Shown: positions 5,671 through 59,880 of the stretch, in pieces
How positions within the stretch are numbered: position 1 is the first letter of the stretch
Layout of the letters: each line of letters begins with the position of its first letter
Origin: an uncultured Williamsia sp.
GTDB lineage: Bacteria; Actinomycetota; Actinomycetes; Mycobacteriales; Mycobacteriaceae
DNA: 64,000 nt
Assembly (NCBI RefSeq): GCF_947494875.1
Contig: NZ_CANLWM010000009.1
Span: 1 to 64,000, forward strand
Reading direction: 5' to 3'
Notes under the pieces: model-generated
Told to the model about the DNA's origin: nothing
What the model saw: the letters and a program-made list of their open reading frames with translations, nothing else
Databases searched by the model: none
Made by a program: the position numbers and the translations under genes

Positions 5671-8357
<2,687 letters not shown>

Positions 8358-8414
8358 GGTTGTCTACAGCTCCTGATGTGTCGGTGGTGGTCGGTCGGTC
8401 CGAGGCGGCCCGGC

Positions 8415-14302
<5,888 letters not shown>

Positions 14303-50258: not shown

Positions 50259-50332
50259 GCCCTCGTAGCCCAATTGGCAGAGGCAACGGATTCAAAACCC
50301 GTCCAGTGTGAGTTCGAGTCTCACCGAGGGCA
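50259..50332 (+). tRNA. tRNA-Leu (anticodon CAA), short variable arm
   Basis: A 74-base cloverleaf: 7-bp acceptor stem GCCCTCG/CGAGGGC, D-arm with a 3-bp stem and GG in its loop, anticodon loop TTCAAAA with CAA, and T-arm GTGAG-TTCGAGT-CTCAC. The discriminator is A and CCA is not encoded. The anticodon stem closes with an A-C mismatch. The variable region is only five bases, whereas normal bacterial tRNA-Leu has a long extra arm. From memory, a tRNA-Leu is annotated next to pdtaR in mycobacteria too. Confidence 0.88.
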
Positions 50333-50406
50333 CACAGTTTCTCCGCGTCCCGCCGGTCGCACCGCCGTCGGATAGCATCCGCGACAGCAGTCCTGAGGGG
50401 GAGATC

Positions 50407-51493: not shown

Positions 51494-52288
51494 TCAGCGT
51501 CGGGCCCCGACGTCCTCGCCGCGCAGGAAGCCCAGCGCGGCGGCGGCGAAGTCGTCGGGACGGTCGCGGTGCACGCTGTGCCCGGTCGGGATGGCGAGGA
51601 AGTGCCCGTCCGGCAGCGCACCGGCGAGTGTGCGCAGGTGCCGCGGCGGGAGGAAGCTCTGCTCGCCGCCGGAGACGACGAGCACCGGGGTGCGTACCCG
51701 CGACAGGCCGGCCCACCAGTCGGGGTCGGGTTCGCCGAACGCCGCCTGGACCGTCGGTGCCAGTCGCACGTCGAAGCGCATCACCGGACGCGGGTCGCGG
51801 ATGACGTCGAGCACCCCGAGGACCATCTCGCGGGGTGAGCTGCGCGGGACGATCCCCTCGGCGACGTCGGCGGCGTCCCGCGGGGTGGGTGGCACCTCCT
51901 CGAGGACGAGCCGCCCGAAGCGGTCGGGGGCCACCATCGCCGCCCGCAGTGCCACATGTGCGCCGAGCGAATGGGCGACGACGTCGACGGACCCGTCGCC
52001 GGGGAGGTCGGCCATGATCGACAGCAGGTCGTCGCGCATCCGGTCGAGGTCGTAGACACCCCGCGAGCTCTGCCCGTGGCCCCGCTGGTCGTAGGACACG
52101 ACGGGACGCCCCTCCGAGCGCAGGGCGGCGGCGAGTCGGCGCCAGGTCGTGTGGTCGCCCCCCATGCCGTGCACCGCGAGCACCGGCCTGCCGGTCCCGC
52201 CATGCGACCGGCGTACGGCGAGGTCGATCGGTACGCCGTCGTCCATCCGCCGCACCCACCGGACGCCGCTCGCGTCGGGGCCGCTCAC
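51494..52288 (-). CDS. alpha/beta hydrolase
   Basis: A 264-residue alpha/beta-hydrolase-fold enzyme. The oxyanion segment is LAVHGMGGDHTTW, the nucleophile elbow is AHSLGAH (serine near 108) and the catalytic histidine is in PTGHSVHRDRP near the C-terminus. The substrate is not identifiable. The GTG start overlaps the TetR stop (GTGA), so it is probably under the TetR regulator's control. Confidence 0.88.
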   Translation of the reverse strand: MSGPDASGVRWVRRMDDGVPIDLAVRRSHGGTGRPVLAVHGMGGDHTTWRRLAAALRSEGRPVVSYDQRGHGQSSRGVYDLDRMRDDLLSIMADLPGDGSVDVVAHSLGAHVALRAAMVAPDRFGRLVLEEVPPTPRDAADVAEGIVPRSSPREMVLGVLDVIRDPRPVMRFDVRLAPTVQAAFGEPDPDWWAGLSRVRTPVLVVSGGEQSFLPPRHLRTLAGALPDGHFLAIPTGHSVHRDRPDDFAAAALGFLRGEDVGARR

Positions 52289-52842
52289 CCCTCCCCGAGC
52301 CCACCCAGGAGGATGTCGACCGCCTCGGCGATGACGTTGTCGTCGGGCAGGTCGCCGTACATGACGGCGGGACAGAGCACGACGCCCGAGACCATCTGCA
52401 CCGCGGCGTCGCGTCGACGCTCGTCGGTGACGACGGACAGGAGGTGGCGGACGTGGCGCTCACCGTCGGCGACGAGCGCCTTGCGGACCTCTGCGATCTG
52501 CGCGTCGGTGGCGCCCTGCTGCGCCAGGGCCATCAGGACCTTGTCGAGCGCGAGTTCCTCGATCGCCGTCCGGAATGCCGTCACCTCGGCGATCAGATCC
52601 GCCCGCAGATCACCGACCGCCTCGGCGTGGGGCATGTCCCCGAGCGACTCGACCGCGATGCGGAGGAGGTCGGCCCGGGCCGGCCAGTGCGTGTACAGCG
52701 TCGTCTTGGAGTACCCGGCCACCCGCGCCACATGCGCATGGGTGACCGCGTCCCACCCCTCCTCGGCCAGCAACCGTCGGACGGTCCGGGAGACGTCGGC
52801 ACGCGTGCGTGCCACGCGCGCATCCTCGTTGCTCACCGTCAT
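52285..52842 (-). CDS. TetR-family transcriptional regulator
   Basis: A 185-residue regulator. Residues about 10-60 are the TetR helix-turn-helix (VSRTVRRLLAEEGWDAVTHAHVARVAGYSKTTLYTHWPARADLL); the C-terminus resembles the TetR ligand domains with a long helix (AVTAFRTAIEEL). The start is taken at ATG 52842. A GTG two codons later (52836) has GGAG at a better distance and is equally possible, and an upstream GTG would add 14 residues. It is divergent from the mycosporine operon, so it is a candidate regulator of both. Confidence 0.88.
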   Translation of the reverse strand: MTVSNEDARVARTRADVSRTVRRLLAEEGWDAVTHAHVARVAGYSKTTLYTHWPARADLLRIAVESLGDMPHAEAVGDLRADLIAEVTAFRTAIEELALDKVLMALAQQGATDAQIAEVRKALVADGERHVRHLLSVVTDERRRDAAVQMVSGVVLCPAVMYGDLPDDNVIAEAVDILLGGLGEG

Positions 52843-53148
52843 CTCCGGTTCGGTCGTGGACCCCCATGTCACCTGCTGTCCCACACGACTCTGCCATCAC
52901 TTGCGGCCTCCCCGCCCGCATGGGCCCGAGATTTTCGGCCAGAAAGTTTTCACCGAAACACTATTGAACGAAGCGACCGGTACTGTACTGTGAGCACATA
53001 TGCCTGTGTTGTGAGTGAAACCACTGCGCTCTCAACGTCATTGACGTGCGAGGACTAATCCTCGACAGCCGCCGGTTCACACTGGCAATCGCGCGCCGCG
53101 AGTTCCGACGGTTCCGCGCGTGCATCACAACCACCGGAAGGTCACACC
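52843..53148. promoter_or_regulatory. intergenic control region between TetR gene and mys operon
   Basis: 306 bases without a gene. It holds a plus-strand promoter, TTGAAC (52964-52969) and TACTGT (52986-52991), 16 bases apart, for the mys operon, with start near 52998 and a leader of about 150 bases. Possible operators are the inverted pair TTTCGG/CCGAAA (52933-52938 and 52953-52958) and the direct repeat TACTGTACTGT over the -10 box. In the leader, ACGTCATTGACGT and CGAGGACTAATCCTCG can form two small hairpins before the start. Confidence 0.5.
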
Positions 53149-53820
53149 GTGTCCGCAGTTCTGTTCGGTTCCATCAGCACCCTCGTCGACACCTCCGAGA
53201 TCCAGCGGCGCGCGTTCAACGAGGCGTTTCGTTCGCACGGGCTGGACTGGGAGTGGTCCCGCGACGACTACCGCTCGATGCTCGGCAGCAACGGGGGCGC
53301 CAACCGTGTCGCCGACTACGCCGGCCAGCGGGGCGAGAAGGTCGACGCCGACGCCGTCCACGCGACCAAGTCGGAGATCTTCCGGACCATCCTGCTGCAG
53401 GACGGCGCGTCCGCACGTCCCGGCGTCGTGGAGACCATCTCCGCCGCCCGGGAGCGCGGGATGAAGGTCGGCCTCGTCACCACGACCTCGCAGGAGAACG
53501 TCGCGGCGGTGCTCTCCGCACTCGGACCCGACGTCAGCACCGACTCGTTCGACATCATCACCGACGTCACCTCCGTCGACTCGCCGAAGCCGGACAAGGC
53601 GGTCTACGAGTACGCGCTGACCCAGCTCGGTGAGTCCGCCGGCGACGTCGTCGCCATCGAGGACAACGTGGGTGGTGTGAGCGCCGCGCGGGCCGCATCC
53701 ATCCGCTGCGTCGCCTTCCCCAACGAGAACACCGCGGGAACGACGTTCGCCGACGCACTCGAACAGGTCGATGCCCTCGACCCCACCCACGTGGGCGACC
53801 TCGCTTCCGCGGCCGCCTGA
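53149..53820 (+). CDS. HAD-family protein of mys cluster, catalytic aspartates lost
   Basis: A 223-residue haloacid-dehalogenase-fold protein of the beta-phosphoglucomutase/CbbY group. Motif II (VGLVTTTS), motif III lysine ([14 protein letters not shown]) and motif IV ([17 protein letters not shown]) are present. Motif I should read DxDxT but is [12 protein letters not shown]: the nucleophile is Gly7 and the acid/base is Ile9. It therefore cannot use the normal phosphoaspartate mechanism. It may bind a sugar phosphate, act as a partner protein, or have new chemistry. The GTG start follows GGAAGG at seven bases. It is the first gene of the operon, 61 bases before mysA. Confidence 0.85.
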
Positions 53821-53881
53821 TCACGACGACCGACACGACCTCGATCGCGGCACCGTCGATCGCAGCAGACCAGGAGAACCC

Positions 53882-55096
53882 ATGAACAACATGCAGGCCA
53901 GCGTGACCGCGACCGACACGTCGTTCCACGTCGAGGGCTACGAGAAGATCGAGTACGACCTGGTGTACGTCGACGGTGTCTTCGACACGGCAAACCGGCA
54001 TCTCGCCGAGGCCTACGCCCCCTACGGACGCTGCCTCATGGTCGTCGACGAGTCGGTGGCGGCCCTGTACGGCGAGCGGTTCCGCGCGTACTTCGCCCAC
54101 CACGGCATCGAACTGACCGTGCACGAGGTGGCGATCGCCGAGACCGCCAAGTCGCTGGAGACGTTCGAGAAGATCGTCACCGCGTTCGACGCGTTCGGTC
54201 TCGTGCGCACCGAGCCGGTGCTCGTCGTCGGTGGCGGGTTGAGCACCGACGTCGCCGGATTCGCCTGCGCGGCCTACCGGCGCAACACGCCCTACATCCG
54301 CATCCCCACCACCCTGATCGGGCTCATCGACGCCAGCGTGTCGATCAAGGTCGCCGTCAACCACGGCAAGCACAAGAACCGTCTCGGCGCCTACCACGCC
54401 AGCCAGCAGGTCCTGCTGGACTTCTCGTTCCTCGCGACATTGCCCGAGGACCAGGTGCGCAACGGGATGGCCGAGCTCATCAAGATCTCGGTCGTCGGCA
54501 ACCGGGAGATCTTCGACCTCCTCGACGAACACGGCCCCGACCTCCTGCGGACCCGCTTCGGACACCTCGACGGCACCCCGGAGATCCGGGCCATCGGTGA
54601 CCGGGTGACCTACGCCGCCATCGCGACCATGCTCGAACTCGAATCGCCGAACCTGCACGAGATCGATCTCGACCGGGTGATCGCCTTCGGCCACACATGG
54701 AGCCCCACGCTGGAGCTCACCCCGCCCGCCCCGTACTTCCACGGCCACGCGATCAACGTCGACATGGCCTACTCGACGACGTTGGCCGAGCAGCGCGGGC
54801 ACATCACACCCGAGGAGCGCGATCGCGTGCTCGGCGCGATGAGCCGTATCGGCCTGGCGCTCGACAGCCCGTATCTCACCGCGGAGCTGCTCACCGAGGC
54901 GACCGACTCGATCCTGCGCACCCGCGACGGCATGCTGCGCGCCGCCATCCCGAACCCGATCGGCAGCTGCGTCTTCCTCAACGACGTGTCCACCGGCGAA
55001 CTCGTCGACACGCTCGAGGTGCACCGAAAGATCTGCGCCGAGTTCCCGCGCGGCGGCGAGGGAACGGGCATGTTCACCGACCGCAGCGATGCCTGA
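53882..55096 (+). CDS. mysA: sugar-phosphate cyclase, desmethyl-4-deoxygadusol synthase-like
   Basis: A 404-residue member of the dehydroquinate-synthase-like fold that cyclises sedoheptulose 7-phosphate. NAD-binding [11 protein letters not shown] (117-127), [23 protein letters not shown] (141-163) and [13 protein letters not shown] (165-177) match the DDGS/2-epi-5-epi-valiolone synthase branch rather than true dehydroquinate synthase. Zinc ligands are Glu198 (GMAELIK), His271 (FGHTW) and His287 (YFHGHA). The neighbouring methyltransferase and two ligases favour desmethyl-4-deoxygadusol synthase. AGGAGAA precedes the ATG by four bases. EEVS cannot be excluded by eye. Confidence 0.88.
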
Positions 55097-55949
55097 CCGT
55101 TCCGCCGGCGCCGAGACCCTCCCCGCACCACGGCCGGTCACACCGACGACGGTGTTGGCCTCCGAGCTGGTCACGCTCTGCGAACGACTGGCCGACGCGG
55201 GGGTGGACGGCGACATCCTGGAGGCCGCACGTCGATCCCGTGATCTGGCAACAGGTCTCGACGAGTACGTGGCAACCTGCACGTCGCCGGAGTCCCCGGC
55301 CCTGGCCGGCCTGACCCGACGGACGCAGGGCACCGACTGGGACACGGGGGATCACGCGGTCCCGCTCGAGCAGGAGATGCTGTCCGGTCACGTCGAAGGA
55401 CGCTTCCTGGAGTTCCTCGTCCACATGACCGGCGCCCGCCGCATCCTCGAGCTGGGCATGTTCACCGGGTACTCGGCGCTCGCGATGGCGCAGGCCGCGG
55501 GCCCGGAGGCTCGCGTGGTGGCGAGTGAGATCGACGCCGACGTCGCGGCGTTCGCGCAGGAGTCGTTCGCCGAGGCGGGTGTCGCCGATCGCATCGACGT
55601 GCTGGTGGGCCCGGCCGACGACACGCTGCGCGAACTCGCCGGTCACGCCGAGCGTGGTGGCATCGCGCCGTTCGACCTCGTCTTCATCGACGCGGACAAG
55701 GCCGGGTACGCGCGATATCTGGACCGCCTGCTCGAGTCCTCGTTGCTCGCACCGCATGCCGTCATCGCGGTCGACAACACCCTCATGCAGGGTCAGCCCT
55801 ATCGCGACGGCACGCCGGCCACCGAGAACGGTCGTGCGATCGCCGACTTCAACGCCGCCGTCGCCGCGGACGACCGCGTCGAGCAGGTGCTGGTGCCCAT
55901 CCGCGACGGGGTGACCCTGATCCGCCGGGTGGAGACGCGAGCGTCGTGA
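55089..55949 (+). CDS. mysB: O-methyltransferase, 4-deoxygadusol-forming
   Basis: A 286-residue SAM-dependent O-methyltransferase of the catechol/CCoAOMT type. Motif I is [18 protein letters not shown] (118-135), followed by SEIDAD and the metal-linked motif [16 protein letters not shown] (195-210). In mycosporine clusters the enzyme methylates desmethyl-4-deoxygadusol to 4-deoxygadusol; that role is inferred from context. The ATG overlaps the mysA end by eight bases. Confidence 0.87.
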
Positions 55950-57256
55950 CGTCGCTGCGCGAGGCCAACGCGGCGCGCACCGTGGGTGTGCTCGCCGCGT
56001 CGGTCCTGACGGCGGTTGTCGACGGCGTCGTGGTGGGTGTCGCACTCGCCGGCCGCCACCGCCCACCCGCGGCGACCCCGGCGCGGGACCGTCGCACCGT
56101 CCTCGTCACCGGCGGGAAGATGACGAAGTCACTCGCGCTGGCACGCGCGTTCCACGCCGCGGGCCATCGGGTGGTCCTGGTCGAGTCGGCGAAGTATCGC
56201 CAGACAGGACACCGGTTCTCGCGCGCCGTCGACGCATTCCACACCACACCCGAGACGAGCTCACCCGACTACGCCCGCGCGCTCGCCGACATCGTCGACC
56301 GCGAGCGCGTCGACGTGGTGGTGCCCGTGTCGAGTCCGGCGTCCAGTGTCGTCGAGGCCGCGGCCCGCTCACTGCTCGACCAGCGGTGCGAGGTGCTGCA
56401 CGGAGACGTCGACACCATCGCGATGCTGGACGACAAGGCCGCGTTCTCCGAGCGCGCGGAGAAGCTCGGGCTGTCGGTCCCGCACTTCGCCCGCATCACC
56501 CACCCCGCGCAGATCGACGACTTCGACTTCCGCCCGGGCCGGGAGTACATCCTCAAACGCATCGCCTACAACCCCGTGGGGCGCATGGACCTGACCCGGC
56601 TACGTGCCGAGACACCCCGGGAGAACGCGGCCTTCGCGCGGACGTTGTCGATCAGCGACGAGGACCCGTGGATCCTGCAGGAGTTCATCGCCGGCACGGA
56701 GTACTGCACGCACGGCACCGTCCGCGACGGCAGGCTGCAGGTGTGGGCATGCTGCGAGTCGTCGGCGTTCCAGATCAACTACGCCATGACCGAACACCCG
56801 CGCATCCGGGACTGGGTCGAGACGTTCCTCGCGTCGACCGGGCTCACCGGCCAGGCGTCGTTCGACTTCATCGAGGCGCCCGACGGCGAGGTCTACGCGA
56901 TCGAGTGCAACCCCCGGACCCACTCGGCGATCACGATGTTCTACGACCACCCCGAGTTGGCCGCGGCGTACCTCGACGACGGTCACCCCACGATCGTCCC
57001 GACCCCGACATCGCGTCCGACGCACTGGATCTACCACGAGCTGTGGCGTCTGCTCACCGGCCCCGACCGGCGTGCGCGGTGGAACAGCATCCGACGCAGC
57101 ACCGACGCCATCTTCTCCCCCGAGGACCCGCTGCCGTTCTTCATGGTCCACCACGCGCACATCCCGTCGCTGCTGCTGGCGAACCTGCGTGCGCGGCGCG
57201 GGTGGGCACGGATCGACCTCAACATCGGCAAACTCGTCGAGAACGGCGGCGACTGA
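55946..57256 (+). CDS. mysC: ATP-grasp ligase, mycosporine-glycine synthase-like
   Basis: A 436-residue ATP-grasp enzyme. In known pathways MysC activates 4-deoxygadusol and joins glycine to give mycosporine-glycine. The N-terminus has a hydrophobic helix (about 13-36, VGVLAASVLTAVVDGVVVGV) and then a Rossmann-like pre-grasp domain starting VLVTGGKMTKSLALARAFH. ATP-grasp markers are YILKRIAYNPVGRMDL, WILQEFIAGTEYCTHG and the metal-binding YAIECNPRTHSAITMFY. The GTG start overlaps the mysB stop (GTGA). The family match is clear; the substrate is inferred from the cluster. Confidence 0.86.
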   Translation: MTSLREANAARTVGVLAASVLTAVVDGVVVGVALAGRHRPPAATPARDRRTVLVTGGKMTKSLALARAFHAAGHRVVLVESAKYRQTGHRFSRAVDAFHTTPETSSPDYARALADIVDRERVDVVVPVSSPASSVVEAAARSLLDQRCEVLHGDVDTIAMLDDKAAFSERAEKLGLSVPHFARITHPAQIDDFDFRPGREYILKRIAYNPVGRMDLTRLRAETPRENAAFARTLSISDEDPWILQEFIAGTEYCTHGTVRDGRLQVWACCESSAFQINYAMTEHPRIRDWVETFLASTGLTGQASFDFIEAPDGEVYAIECNPRTHSAITMFYDHPELAAAYLDDGHPTIVPTPTSRPTHWIYHELWRLLTGPDRRARWNSIRRSTDAIFSPEDPLPFFMVHHAHIPSLLLANLRARRGWARIDLNIGKLVENGGD

Positions 57257-57257
57257 G

Positions 57258-58292
57258 ATGGCGCGTCGTCTCCTGCACCTCGTCGGATCCCCGGTCGACG
57301 AGTTCTTCGCAGACCTGTCGCGCCTCTATGCCGGAGGGTGTCTCGACGCGCTCGCCGGTGACGACCGGTTCGAGCACGTCATCGCGCACGTGTCGCCTGA
57401 TCGGGCATGGACGTTCCCGGCCGATCTGCAGGCATCGACCATCGCCGAGGCGGAGCACCTCGACGTGGCCGGCGCGATCGCGCACATCCGCTCGCTCGAC
57501 GTCGATGCCGTTCTGCCGCAGATGTTCTGCCGCCCGGGCATGACCGCGTACCGGTCTCTGTTCGCGGTTCTCGGCATCGACGTCATCGGCAACACCGCCG
57601 AGGTGATGGCCGTCGCCGCGGACAAGGCGCAGGCGCGCGCAGTCGTCGCGGCGGCGGGCGTGGCCGTCCCGGCCGGGGAGGTCGTCACCCGCGGCGACAC
57701 ACCGGGCCTCGCGCCGCCGGTGGTCGTGAAGCCCGTCGACGCCGACAACTCCGTCGGCGTCACCCTCGTCACAGATCCGACCGAGTTGCCCCGGGCGCTC
57801 GAGGAGGCCCTCGCCCACGGCACCTCCGCGCTCGTCGAGGAGTTCGTGCCGCTGGGCCGAGAGGTCCGCTGCGGCATCGTGGTCCGCGACGCCGAGCTGG
57901 TGTGCCTCCCGCTCGAGGAGTACGCCGTCGACGCCGAGTCCGCGCCCATCCGCACGCCCCGGGACAAGCTCTCCCGCGGCGACGACGGTGACCTGTTCCT
58001 CGTCGCGAAGACCACCGACCGCGCGTGGATCGTGCCCGACGACGATCCCGTGGTCGCGCGGGTGCACGAGGCGGCCCGACGTGCGCACACCGCTCTGGGC
58101 TGCCGGCACTACAGCCTCTTCGACTTCCGCATCGACCCCGACGGCAGGCCGTTCTTTCTCGAGGCCGGGCCCTACTGCTCGTTCTCCCCCGGCAGCGTGA
58201 TCGCCGTCATGGCCGCGGCCGCGGGGATGGACCTCACCACGCTCTTCGACACCGTGCTGCACGAACTCGACCGAGAGAGGGCGACCGCATGA
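57258..58292 (+). CDS. mysD: D-Ala-D-Ala ligase-like enzyme, second amino-acid ligase of the pathway
   Basis: A 344-residue ATP-grasp protein of the D-alanine-D-alanine ligase group. MysD homologues attach serine, threonine or another amine to mycosporine-glycine, forming the UV-absorbing imine. Visible features are PVVVKPVDADNSVGVTLV (about 150-167), ALVEEFVPLGREVRCGIV and C-terminal FFLEAGPYCSFSPGSV, where the usual metal-binding Asn-x-x-Pro-Gly context is altered. It begins one base after the mysC stop and overlaps the dioxygenase gene. Confidence 0.86.
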   Translation: MARRLLHLVGSPVDEFFADLSRLYAGGCLDALAGDDRFEHVIAHVSPDRAWTFPADLQASTIAEAEHLDVAGAIAHIRSLDVDAVLPQMFCRPGMTAYRSLFAVLGIDVIGNTAEVMAVAADKAQARAVVAAAGVAVPAGEVVTRGDTPGLAPPVVVKPVDADNSVGVTLVTDPTELPRALEEALAHGTSALVEEFVPLGREVRCGIVVRDAELVCLPLEEYAVDAESAPIRTPRDKLSRGDDGDLFLVAKTTDRAWIVPDDDPVVARVHEAARRAHTALGCRHYSLFDFRIDPDGRPFFLEAGPYCSFSPGSVIAVMAAAAGMDLTTLFDTVLHELDRERATA

Positions 58293-59059
58293 AGACCACC
58301 CCGCTGCATCCGTTCGGTGTGCGCGTCACCGAGATCACCGTCGGCGCAATCGATCCCGACACCGTCGACGCACTGCGAGTCCTCCTGGCCGAGCACGGTG
58401 TCGCGGTGTTCCCCGGCCAGGACATCGACGACGTCGCGTTCCTCGACTTTCTCCGGTCCTTCGGGCAGACCACCTTCACGCAGGGCGAGACACCGGTCGA
58501 GGACTTCCCGGAGCTCAACGTCATCTCCAACGTCGGACGCACGACTCCGCCGCGGTCGCAATTCCACACCGACACCAGCTATGTCGCTCAGCCGCCGGCG
58601 TACACCGCCCTCCGGGCGGTCGAGGTGCCGGAACAGGGCGGGCAGACCCTCTTCGCCGACCAGTACCGCGCGTTCGAGACGCTGCCGGACATCGTCCGCG
58701 AGGACCTGACCCGGCGCACGGTCACCCACGTCGTCACCGGGCTGGAGCTCGACGACGACGCCGAGACCTCCGCCGACCACCCGCTGGCCGCTCCGCATCC
58801 CCGCTCGGGACGGACCGCGCTCTATCTCTCGACACCGCAACGGTGCGCGGCGATCTCGGGCCTGAGCGCCGAGGAGGCGCAGGACACGATCGTCTCCCTG
58901 CTCGAGCACAGCACCCGCGACGACAATGTCCTCGCCCATGCGTGGTCAGCGGGCGACGTCGTGATGTGGGACAACCGGTGTGTCCTGCACCGTGCCGACC
59001 ATTCCGGCGTCGTCGGCGACCGCGTGATGCACCGCGGGATGGTGCTGGAGAACGTCTGA
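58289..59059 (+). CDS. TauD-family Fe(II)/2-oxoglutarate dioxygenase, candidate tailoring enzyme
   Basis: A 256-residue TauD/TfdA-type dioxygenase. The iron triad is His93 and Asp95 in SQFHTDTSYV and His234 in CVLHRADHSG; the 2-oxoglutarate arginine is Arg249 in MHRGMVLE, and VPEQGGQTLFAD holds the cosubstrate threonine. All catalytic residues are present. The ATG overlaps the mysD stop (ATGA), so it belongs to the pathway operon. Cyanobacterial clusters can carry another class of dioxygenase (MysH, PhyH-type) that makes palythines. This TauD-type enzyme may do analogous oxidation or dealkylation of the mycosporine; the product is unknown. Confidence 0.87.
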   Translation: MKTTPLHPFGVRVTEITVGAIDPDTVDALRVLLAEHGVAVFPGQDIDDVAFLDFLRSFGQTTFTQGETPVEDFPELNVISNVGRTTPPRSQFHTDTSYVAQPPAYTALRAVEVPEQGGQTLFADQYRAFETLPDIVREDLTRRTVTHVVTGLELDDDAETSADHPLAAPHPRSGRTALYLSTPQRCAAISGLSAEEAQDTIVSLLEHSTRDDNVLAHAWSAGDVVMWDNRCVLHRADHSGVVGDRVMHRGMVLENV

Positions 59060-59154: not shown

Positions 59155-59880
59155 GTGCTCCTGCAGACCCCCTTCCCGGCCCCGGCCGGCCCGTCCTCCC
59201 CCGCACCCACCCTCTCTCTGCCTGCCGACGACCTGGTCGTCGACCTGTCCGTCTACGCTCCCCAGAGCGATTCCTACCTGCTGGTGGAGGCCATCCGTGG
59301 GCTCGGTGACCGCGTCGCCGGTTCCCGCGTGCTGGACCTGTGCTGCGGCACCGGCATCGCGGCCGTGACCGCGGCCCGTCGGCGCGCGGCCGAGGTCCTC
59401 GCTCTCGACCTGAATCCCGCCGCGGTCCGCAGCGCCGCCGCCAACGCCGCCCGTCACGCGCCGGCGATGCATGCCCGACGCGGATGTCTCACCGACGCGA
59501 TCGAGCACGGCCCGTTCGACGTCGTCGTCTGCAATCCGCCCTACGTCCCCGCCCCGCGCGAGGACGTCGACCACGCGTCGGCCGAATCCGCCTGGGACGC
59601 CGGCCGTGACGGACGATCGGTGCTGGACCCGTTGTGCTGCAGGCTCCCCGACCTGCTCGTACCCGGCGGTGTCGCCCTCCTCGTGCACTCCGAGGTCGCC
59701 GGCATCGACGCGACCGTGCAGGCCTGCCGGGACGCGGGCCTGTCGTCGGAGGTGCTGTCCCGCACACGGATCCCGCTCGGGCCGGTGATGCTCGACCGCC
59801 GCGACTGGCTCGTCGCACGGGGCCTGCTCCCGCCCGGCGCCGACACCGAGGAACTCGCCGTCATCCGGGCGTCGCTGTGA
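59155..59880 (+). CDS. HemK-like methyltransferase
   Basis: A 241-residue SAM-dependent methyltransferase of the HemK/PrmC-like group. The SAM motif is RVLDLCCGTGIAAVTAA (about 58-74), with ALDLNPAAV and the catalytic NPPYVP motif of N-methyltransferases acting on Gln, Asn or bases, near residue 125. It lacks the N-terminal helical domain of PrmC, so a release-factor target is not assured. The GTG start has GAGG six bases before it. It is translationally coupled to the iron-sulfur protein gene. Confidence 0.87.
   Translation: MLLQTPFPAPAGPSSPAPTLSLPADDLVVDLSVYAPQSDSYLLVEAIRGLGDRVAGSRVLDLCCGTGIAAVTAARRRAAEVLALDLNPAAVRSAAANAARHAPAMHARRGCLTDAIEHGPFDVVVCNPPYVPAPREDVDHASAESAWDAGRDGRSVLDPLCCRLPDLLVPGGVALLVHSEVAGIDATVQACRDAGLSSEVLSRTRIPLGPVMLDRRDWLVARGLLPPGADTEELAVIRASL

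Follow-up and report, generated by a model that had tools for sequence, protein, structure and literature searches.

A predicted mycosporine-like amino acid operon in Williamsia includes a conserved CbbY-like HAD protein without the motif-I aspartates

We analysed a stretch of 64,000 nucleotides from an uncultured Williamsia sp. (assembly GCF_947494875.1, contig NZ_CANLWM010000009.1, positions 1 to 64,000), hereafter the window, in which six genes at 53149-59059 form a predicted operon for mycosporine-like amino acids (MAA). Its first gene encodes a HAD protein that, in the window as in all its relatives in such operons that we compared, lacks the two aspartates of motif I. We hold with good confidence that this operon makes shinorine and, through a TauD-type dioxygenase, a palythine-type product, under the control of a TetR protein and with the HAD protein as a non-hydrolytic accessory. 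This would extend a known sunscreen pathway, with a predicted product, to Williamsia and to many other members of its family. It would also shift the question about the HAD protein, from which phosphate it removes to what a non-hydrolysing phosphatase does in a biosynthetic operon.

The six open reading frames all lie on the + strand. They encode the HAD protein (53149..53820; PF00702 and PF13419), a sugar phosphate cyclase assigned to desmethyl-4-deoxygadusol synthase (DDGS), or mysA (53882..55096; PF01761), an O-methyltransferase, mysB (55089..55949; PF01596), two ATP-grasp ligases, namely mysC (55946..57256; NF005315) and the D-Ala-D-Ala-ligase-like mysD (57258..58292; PF07478), and a TauD-type Fe(II)/2-oxoglutarate dioxygenase (58289..59059; PF02668). 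A gap of 61 bp separates the HAD and cyclase genes. The overlaps are of 8 bp between the cyclase and methyltransferase genes, 4 bp between the latter and mysC, and 4 bp between mysD and the TauD gene, while mysC and mysD are 1 base apart. Five of the six proteins match Pfam families well over cut-off. The exception is the MysC-like protein, which has no Pfam match above cut-off and passes NCBIfam NF005315, a family titled 'hypothetical protein', with 421 bits (cut-off 406). MysB, MysC, and MysD are 49%, 55%, and 53% identical to proteins of one cluster of Nostoc HK-01. The initial annotation had described overlapping, co-directional genes and, for a mycolic-acid actinomycete, a complete set of the mysA-B-C-D type: the reading frames confirm the coordinates and strand of the former, and the family matches and Nostoc identities bear out the latter. 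With a methyltransferase and ligases of the MysC and MysD types beside the cyclase, the locus is, by its sequence, an MAA (mys) operon. Its nearest named relative is in Williamsia serinedens (cyclase 97% identical), against which all six genes show purifying selection, with ratios of non-synonymous to synonymous substitution rates (dN/dS) of 0.04-0.13. Among the 33 loci that we collected by their cyclases, L031-L035 (cyclases of 25-37% identity, no HAD match) served as outgroups only. All 28 named actinobacterial loci carry both the HAD and the cyclase genes; the remaining genes are absent from some of them, partly at contig ends.

The best solved relative of the HAD protein is CbbY (4uat, E 3e-36), a xylulose-1,5-bisphosphate phosphatase (PMC10212915), and its plasmid relatives include HAD genes within cbb operons. 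The HAD fold and a CbbY-like cap are both recognisable in its sequence, but the DxD of motif I is not. Gly, Ser, and Ile or Leu replace it in all 86 distinct sequences (85 actinobacterial and one from Roseobacter), that of the window (Gly, Ile) included; both this set and a set of 82 sequences exclude matches of at most 150 bits and those that do not span the motifs. In the latter set, 80 sequences have Ile at the second motif-I position and 2 have Leu. Ser8 is invariant (86/86), and 79 of the 82 also have a Ser at position 10. The Thr of motif II, the Lys of motif III, and the Glu-Asp positions of motif IV are retained in the 82 sequences, and 20 further positions are invariant, although most of these were chosen from invariant columns of a 26-row alignment and their invariance is thus partly by choice. 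Two CbbY-like proteins from cbb operons, L093 and L094, share 16 and 19 of these 20 positions, respectively, and the DxD is intact in all five inspected homologues from outside this group (L063, L064, L093, L094, L199). The dN/dS of the HAD gene is 0.12 against W. serinedens and 0.26 against W. deligens. The single Roseobacter sequence, from a plasmid of Roseobacter litoralis (L092, 7989-8660), is 42% identical, reads FGSIGT, and adjoins potassium-uptake genes; no DDGS relative was found on that plasmid record.

In a sample of the class, 10 of 394 genomes carry MysC, and the HAD gene (E below 1e-70) occurs in exactly those 10. In a sample of the family, all 55 genomes with MysC (out of 401) have HAD, 48/48 by renewed search and 7 from the class-wide one, on the same contig in 54 and on another in 1 (G623). 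Part of this association is built in, as most genomes were drawn by MysC, and the class-wide HAD search is its unbiased part. All eight Williamsia genomes of a genus sample have HAD. Among Pseudonocardiaceae, the family of the genome of L027, MysC occurs in 31 of 297 genomes. In five of these, MysC is distant (44%), the cyclase is divergent, and HAD is absent; 22 of the other 26 have HAD (17 of 20 stretches, L027, and 4 by a same-contig search). Neither the stretches nor the genomes of L179-L181 have a HAD match at E 1e-20; in G1024, MysC is no more than partial and the only HAD match is a distant one of the DxD type.

For 20 of the 26 Pseudonocardiaceae genomes with a close MysC, the stretch around it was compared. 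TauD of at least 60% identity is present in 9 of these stretches, 2 have a TauD-like gene that is divergent (35-36%), and 9 have neither. The divergent gene lies between the methyltransferase and MysC genes (L170, 9350-9871; L175, 9350-9883). HAD is present in six of the nine TauD-less stretches, and none of the three HAD-less stretches has TauD. No alternative oxygenase emerged from Pfam scans of seven reading frames beside L169, L172, and L179 and of three from L162, a result of little weight because many of the frames were probably wrong. The methyltransferase is absent, with HAD and the other genes retained, in L007, L011, L018, L187, and L188; the loci without it belong to a Mycobacterium gordonae strain, two Mycobacterium metagenome-assembled genomes, and two other members of the family (G345 and G679). 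The best methyltransferase match in G345 and in the genomes of L007, L011, and L018 is at 1e-16 to 1e-23, versus 1e-84 or better in three controls. Such loci may make demethylated products or rely on another, borrowed enzyme. Finally, L174 (genome G816, 6190-10106) has HAD, MysC, MysD, and TauD, whereas the cyclase and methyltransferase are absent from the stretch, and G816 has no DDGS orthologue genome-wide. The presence of HAD tracks the MysC-MysD block better than it tracks TauD, MysB, or MysA. An obligate partnership with TauD is rejected by the six stretches that retain HAD without TauD. More generally, HAD is not simply the partner of TauD because it persists after the loss of TauD, of the methyltransferase, and, once, of both cyclase and methyltransferase.

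In the mechanism of HAD enzymes, the first aspartate of motif I is the nucleophile and a Mg ligand, and the second is the acid/base. As both are replaced, the HAD protein is probably not a phosphatase step in the pathway. Its residues suggest that it most likely descends from a sugar-bisphosphate phosphatase of the CbbY kind, retaining most of the conserved CbbY residues, and that it would act as a non-hydrolytic accessory in ligand binding, regulation, or complex formation. We favour, with moderate confidence, a more specific proposal: it would be a conserved pseudophosphatase that lost catalysis, kept the sugar-phosphate pocket, and was recruited as a pathway-specific sensor of a substrate or intermediate, or as a complex partner. 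A wider family with the Gly-Ser motif (GS-type) would likewise be non-catalytic. Several observations weigh against an accessory of this kind. The pocket is judged by alignment, and its lining residues are predictions. The residues of motifs II-IV and the Gly-Ser pair are compatible with an altered chemistry. The Roseobacter protein, in a single case, places the GS type outside any MAA operon. The DDGS-type clusters L179-L181 indicate that the pathway can do without HAD, and L174 argues against HAD as a pure partner of DDGS. Alternatively, the HAD protein could have remained an enzyme that acts on an intermediate of the pathway in an altered reaction, for which it would use the invariant Gly-Ser motif or some other residue. 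The conservation of Ser8 and Ser10 and of motifs II-IV is what such an enzyme would lead one to expect, whereas the loss of both catalytic aspartates and the existence of clusters without HAD are not, and we regard this as a tentative alternative, unlikely but deserving attention.

As for the product of the operon, MysA would convert sedoheptulose 7-phosphate to desmethyl-4-deoxygadusol, MysB would methylate this to 4-deoxygadusol, MysC would add glycine to give mycosporine-glycine, and MysD would add mainly serine to give shinorine. Two residues of the omega loop of MysD have been tied to its product, with L-A or L-S leading mostly to shinorine (PMC11983340). The window MysD has L-A when aligned to that of Nostoc HK-01, which is assumed to follow the published numbering. 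In 117 locus matches, to which some genomes contribute more than one locus, the loop is L-A in 86, L-S in 19, L-V in 11, and F-S in 1. The TauD enzyme would then oxidise and remove a carbon of the glycine, giving a palythine-type product. An operon of Rhodococcus fascians D188 with HAD and TauD yielded shinorine, palythine, and palythine-serine, according to unpublished expression work cited in PMC11888242. Because of this result, of the L-A loop of MysD, and of the intact residues of TauD, our best prediction is shinorine followed by its trimming by TauD to a palythine-type product.

The window TauD belongs to the TauD/TfdA family, like enzymes of the MysI type, and not to the phytanoyl-CoA dioxygenase family of the MysH type: PF02668 is its sole Pfam family at E 0.001. 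Its HxD...H and Arg residues (His93-x-Asp95, His234, and Arg249), presumably the metal and 2-oxoglutarate ligands given what is known of the family, are identical in all 46 locus matches above 150 bits that span them, a count in which one genome can appear twice. As regards MysI, an organism tally of 77 plasmid matches named no cyanobacterium. The operon could also end at shinorine, with TauD inactive or acting on another substrate. MysH, of the phytanoyl-CoA type (PMC10510106), is from a different family than the window enzyme, and the six TauD-less stretches with HAD gave no TauD genome-wide at E 1e-30, in a search without its own positive control. The proposed role of TauD draws on the cited unpublished report and on analogy with MysH and MysI, and the enzyme could act on the other amino acid. 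Against an end at shinorine stand the 4-bp overlap of the TauD gene with mysD, the intact ligand residues of its product, its dN/dS of 0.08 against W. serinedens, and the palythines obtained in the unpublished Rhodococcus work cited in PMC11888242. We thus find it improbable that the pathway stops at shinorine.

It is very improbable that the HAD protein, even if devoid of catalytic residues, is an unneeded passenger heading for decay, given its invariant positions, its dN/dS against W. serinedens, and its presence in every MysC-positive genome of the family sample, in 54 of them within about 3.1 kb of MysC on the same contig.

The window cyclase matches the solved chain 5tpr, which we take to be the Anabaena DDGS, with 62% identity and 572 bits, against 41% and 280 bits for the second best chain, 4p53, and the motifs around its metal-ligand positions agree with 5tpr and not with 4p53. 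The latter is the valiolone synthase ValA (PMC4426668). A tree of 40 cyclases groups the window sequence with 28 actinobacterial rows, Nostoc HK-01, and 5tpr in a single clade (support 100/100). Outside this clade fall 4p53 and two plasmid-borne sedoheptulose-7-phosphate cyclases, with the caveat that there are long branches among the outgroups. The product of 53882-55096 thus falls among the DDGS sequences, apart from the valiolone synthases, and the cyclase phylogeny that could have refuted the initial annotation does not do so. Although valiolone synthases belong to the same superfamily and 4p53 is the second best match, the reading of the cyclase as one of them, with an aminocyclitol or gadusol-like product, is rejected by the tree and the identities, is at odds with the metal-ligand motifs and with the MysC- and MysD-like genes, which to our knowledge aminocyclitol pathways do not include, and has in our view almost no chance of being right. 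The two cyanobacterial DDGS rows of the tree nest among the actinobacterial rows (midpoint root, support modest), a hint of transfer between phyla. In five Pseudonocardiaceae genomes (L162-L166), a ligase resembling MysC (41-43%) is accompanied by a divergent cyclase (38-39%) and by an O-methyltransferase (50-52%), with no match to MysD or HAD. Their cyclases form a sister clade to DDGS, without several DDGS-conserved motifs, and the three-gene sets possibly have a different product.

Upstream of the operon and divergent from it lies a TetR-family gene (52285..52884, - strand; PF00440). In 16 of the 28 named loci, a TetR gene lies near HAD; these comprise every one of the 12 mycobacterial loci, L003, L004, and L013, together with L019, where the gene is on the opposite strand. 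A palindrome of 8-5-8 spacing (in its perfect form TAATGGAC, 5 bases, GTCCATTA) between the two genes is perfect in 5 of 16 regions, against 0.04 expected from shuffles, and within one mismatch of perfect in 11 of them, against 1.36 expected. The window's own gap has no palindrome at this spacing, and its candidate operator (52962..52982, no strand) is degenerate, with only the left half-site retained. The divergent TetR protein probably controls the operon. A scan for sigma-70-like promoters at the operon found none, and one for terminators gave one terminator-like site against 1.5 expected.

The flanks of the operon vary. Upstream of the operon and of its TetR gene, the window, L003, L004, and L013 have in common a pdtaR-like gene and a tRNA-Leu(CAA) gene; in the window, the latter (50259-50333) separates the former from the operon region. 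Genes for tRNA are common integration points. Only imperfect repeats surround the operon; they look like chance in GC-rich coding sequence, and we claim no attachment site. Base composition does not mark the operon as an island. Downstream, a HemK-related methyltransferase gene (59155-59880, + strand) and, on the - strand, a gene whose product has the iron-containing redox enzyme domain PF14518 (60110-61588) each have a counterpart at the equivalent place in L003 and L004, where the relative of the latter gene follows the operon and tesB is absent from the stretches. Both tesB and pyruvate kinase genes are common to the window and L013 only, and neither flank is present at L014, L015, L024, and L026, which are also Williamsia loci. 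These differences place the operon at more than one site within Williamsia. With HAD present in every Williamsia genome sampled, the initial description as an accessory insertion is borne out only in part.

The operon is a member of a published kind. The actinobacterial MAA clusters of the 2025 GATOR-GC preprint have the same gene families, and HAD and TauD/TfdA are reported there as conserved genes of MAA clusters in Pseudonocardia and other Actinomycetota (PMC11888242). The initial annotation took these two genes to distinguish the arrangement from the classical one; they do set it apart from cyanobacterial and HAD-less actinobacterial sets, but HAD adjoins the cyclase in all 28 named actinobacterial loci and the arrangement is already in print (PMC11888242). 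The preprint calls HAD highly co-localized with TauD, whereas we find it also retained without TauD. The words 'catalytic', 'aspartate', 'phosphatase', 'inactive', 'pseudoenzyme', and 'CbbY' do not occur in its main text (PMC11888242). In a limited search of the literature on mycosporine and HAD and on pseudophosphatases, which is no proof of absence, we found no earlier report of the missing aspartates. The plasmid cluster of Nostoc sp. HK-01 (L095) shares with the window the cyclase, methyltransferase, MysC-like, and MysD-like proteins (49-64% identical). It differs in that no HAD or TauD is annotated in its 17-kb stretch, which has several hypothetical proteins, and in the F and S of its MysD, where the window has L and A. 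MysI of Nostoc sp. UHCC 0926, a proposed maker of palythine-type amines, is a TauD/TfdA dioxygenase of an MAA pathway like the window TauD; the likeness is at the level of the family. MysI is proposed to act on the C3 glycine and is located with mysF and mysE (PMC10510106). For the HAD protein, CbbY (4uat, 4uar) is the closest solved relative, and where its 4uar chain reads FDVDGT, the HAD group reads GSI or GSL. This conserved loss of the catalytic residues, as it appears from the alignments, is the new element of the operon.

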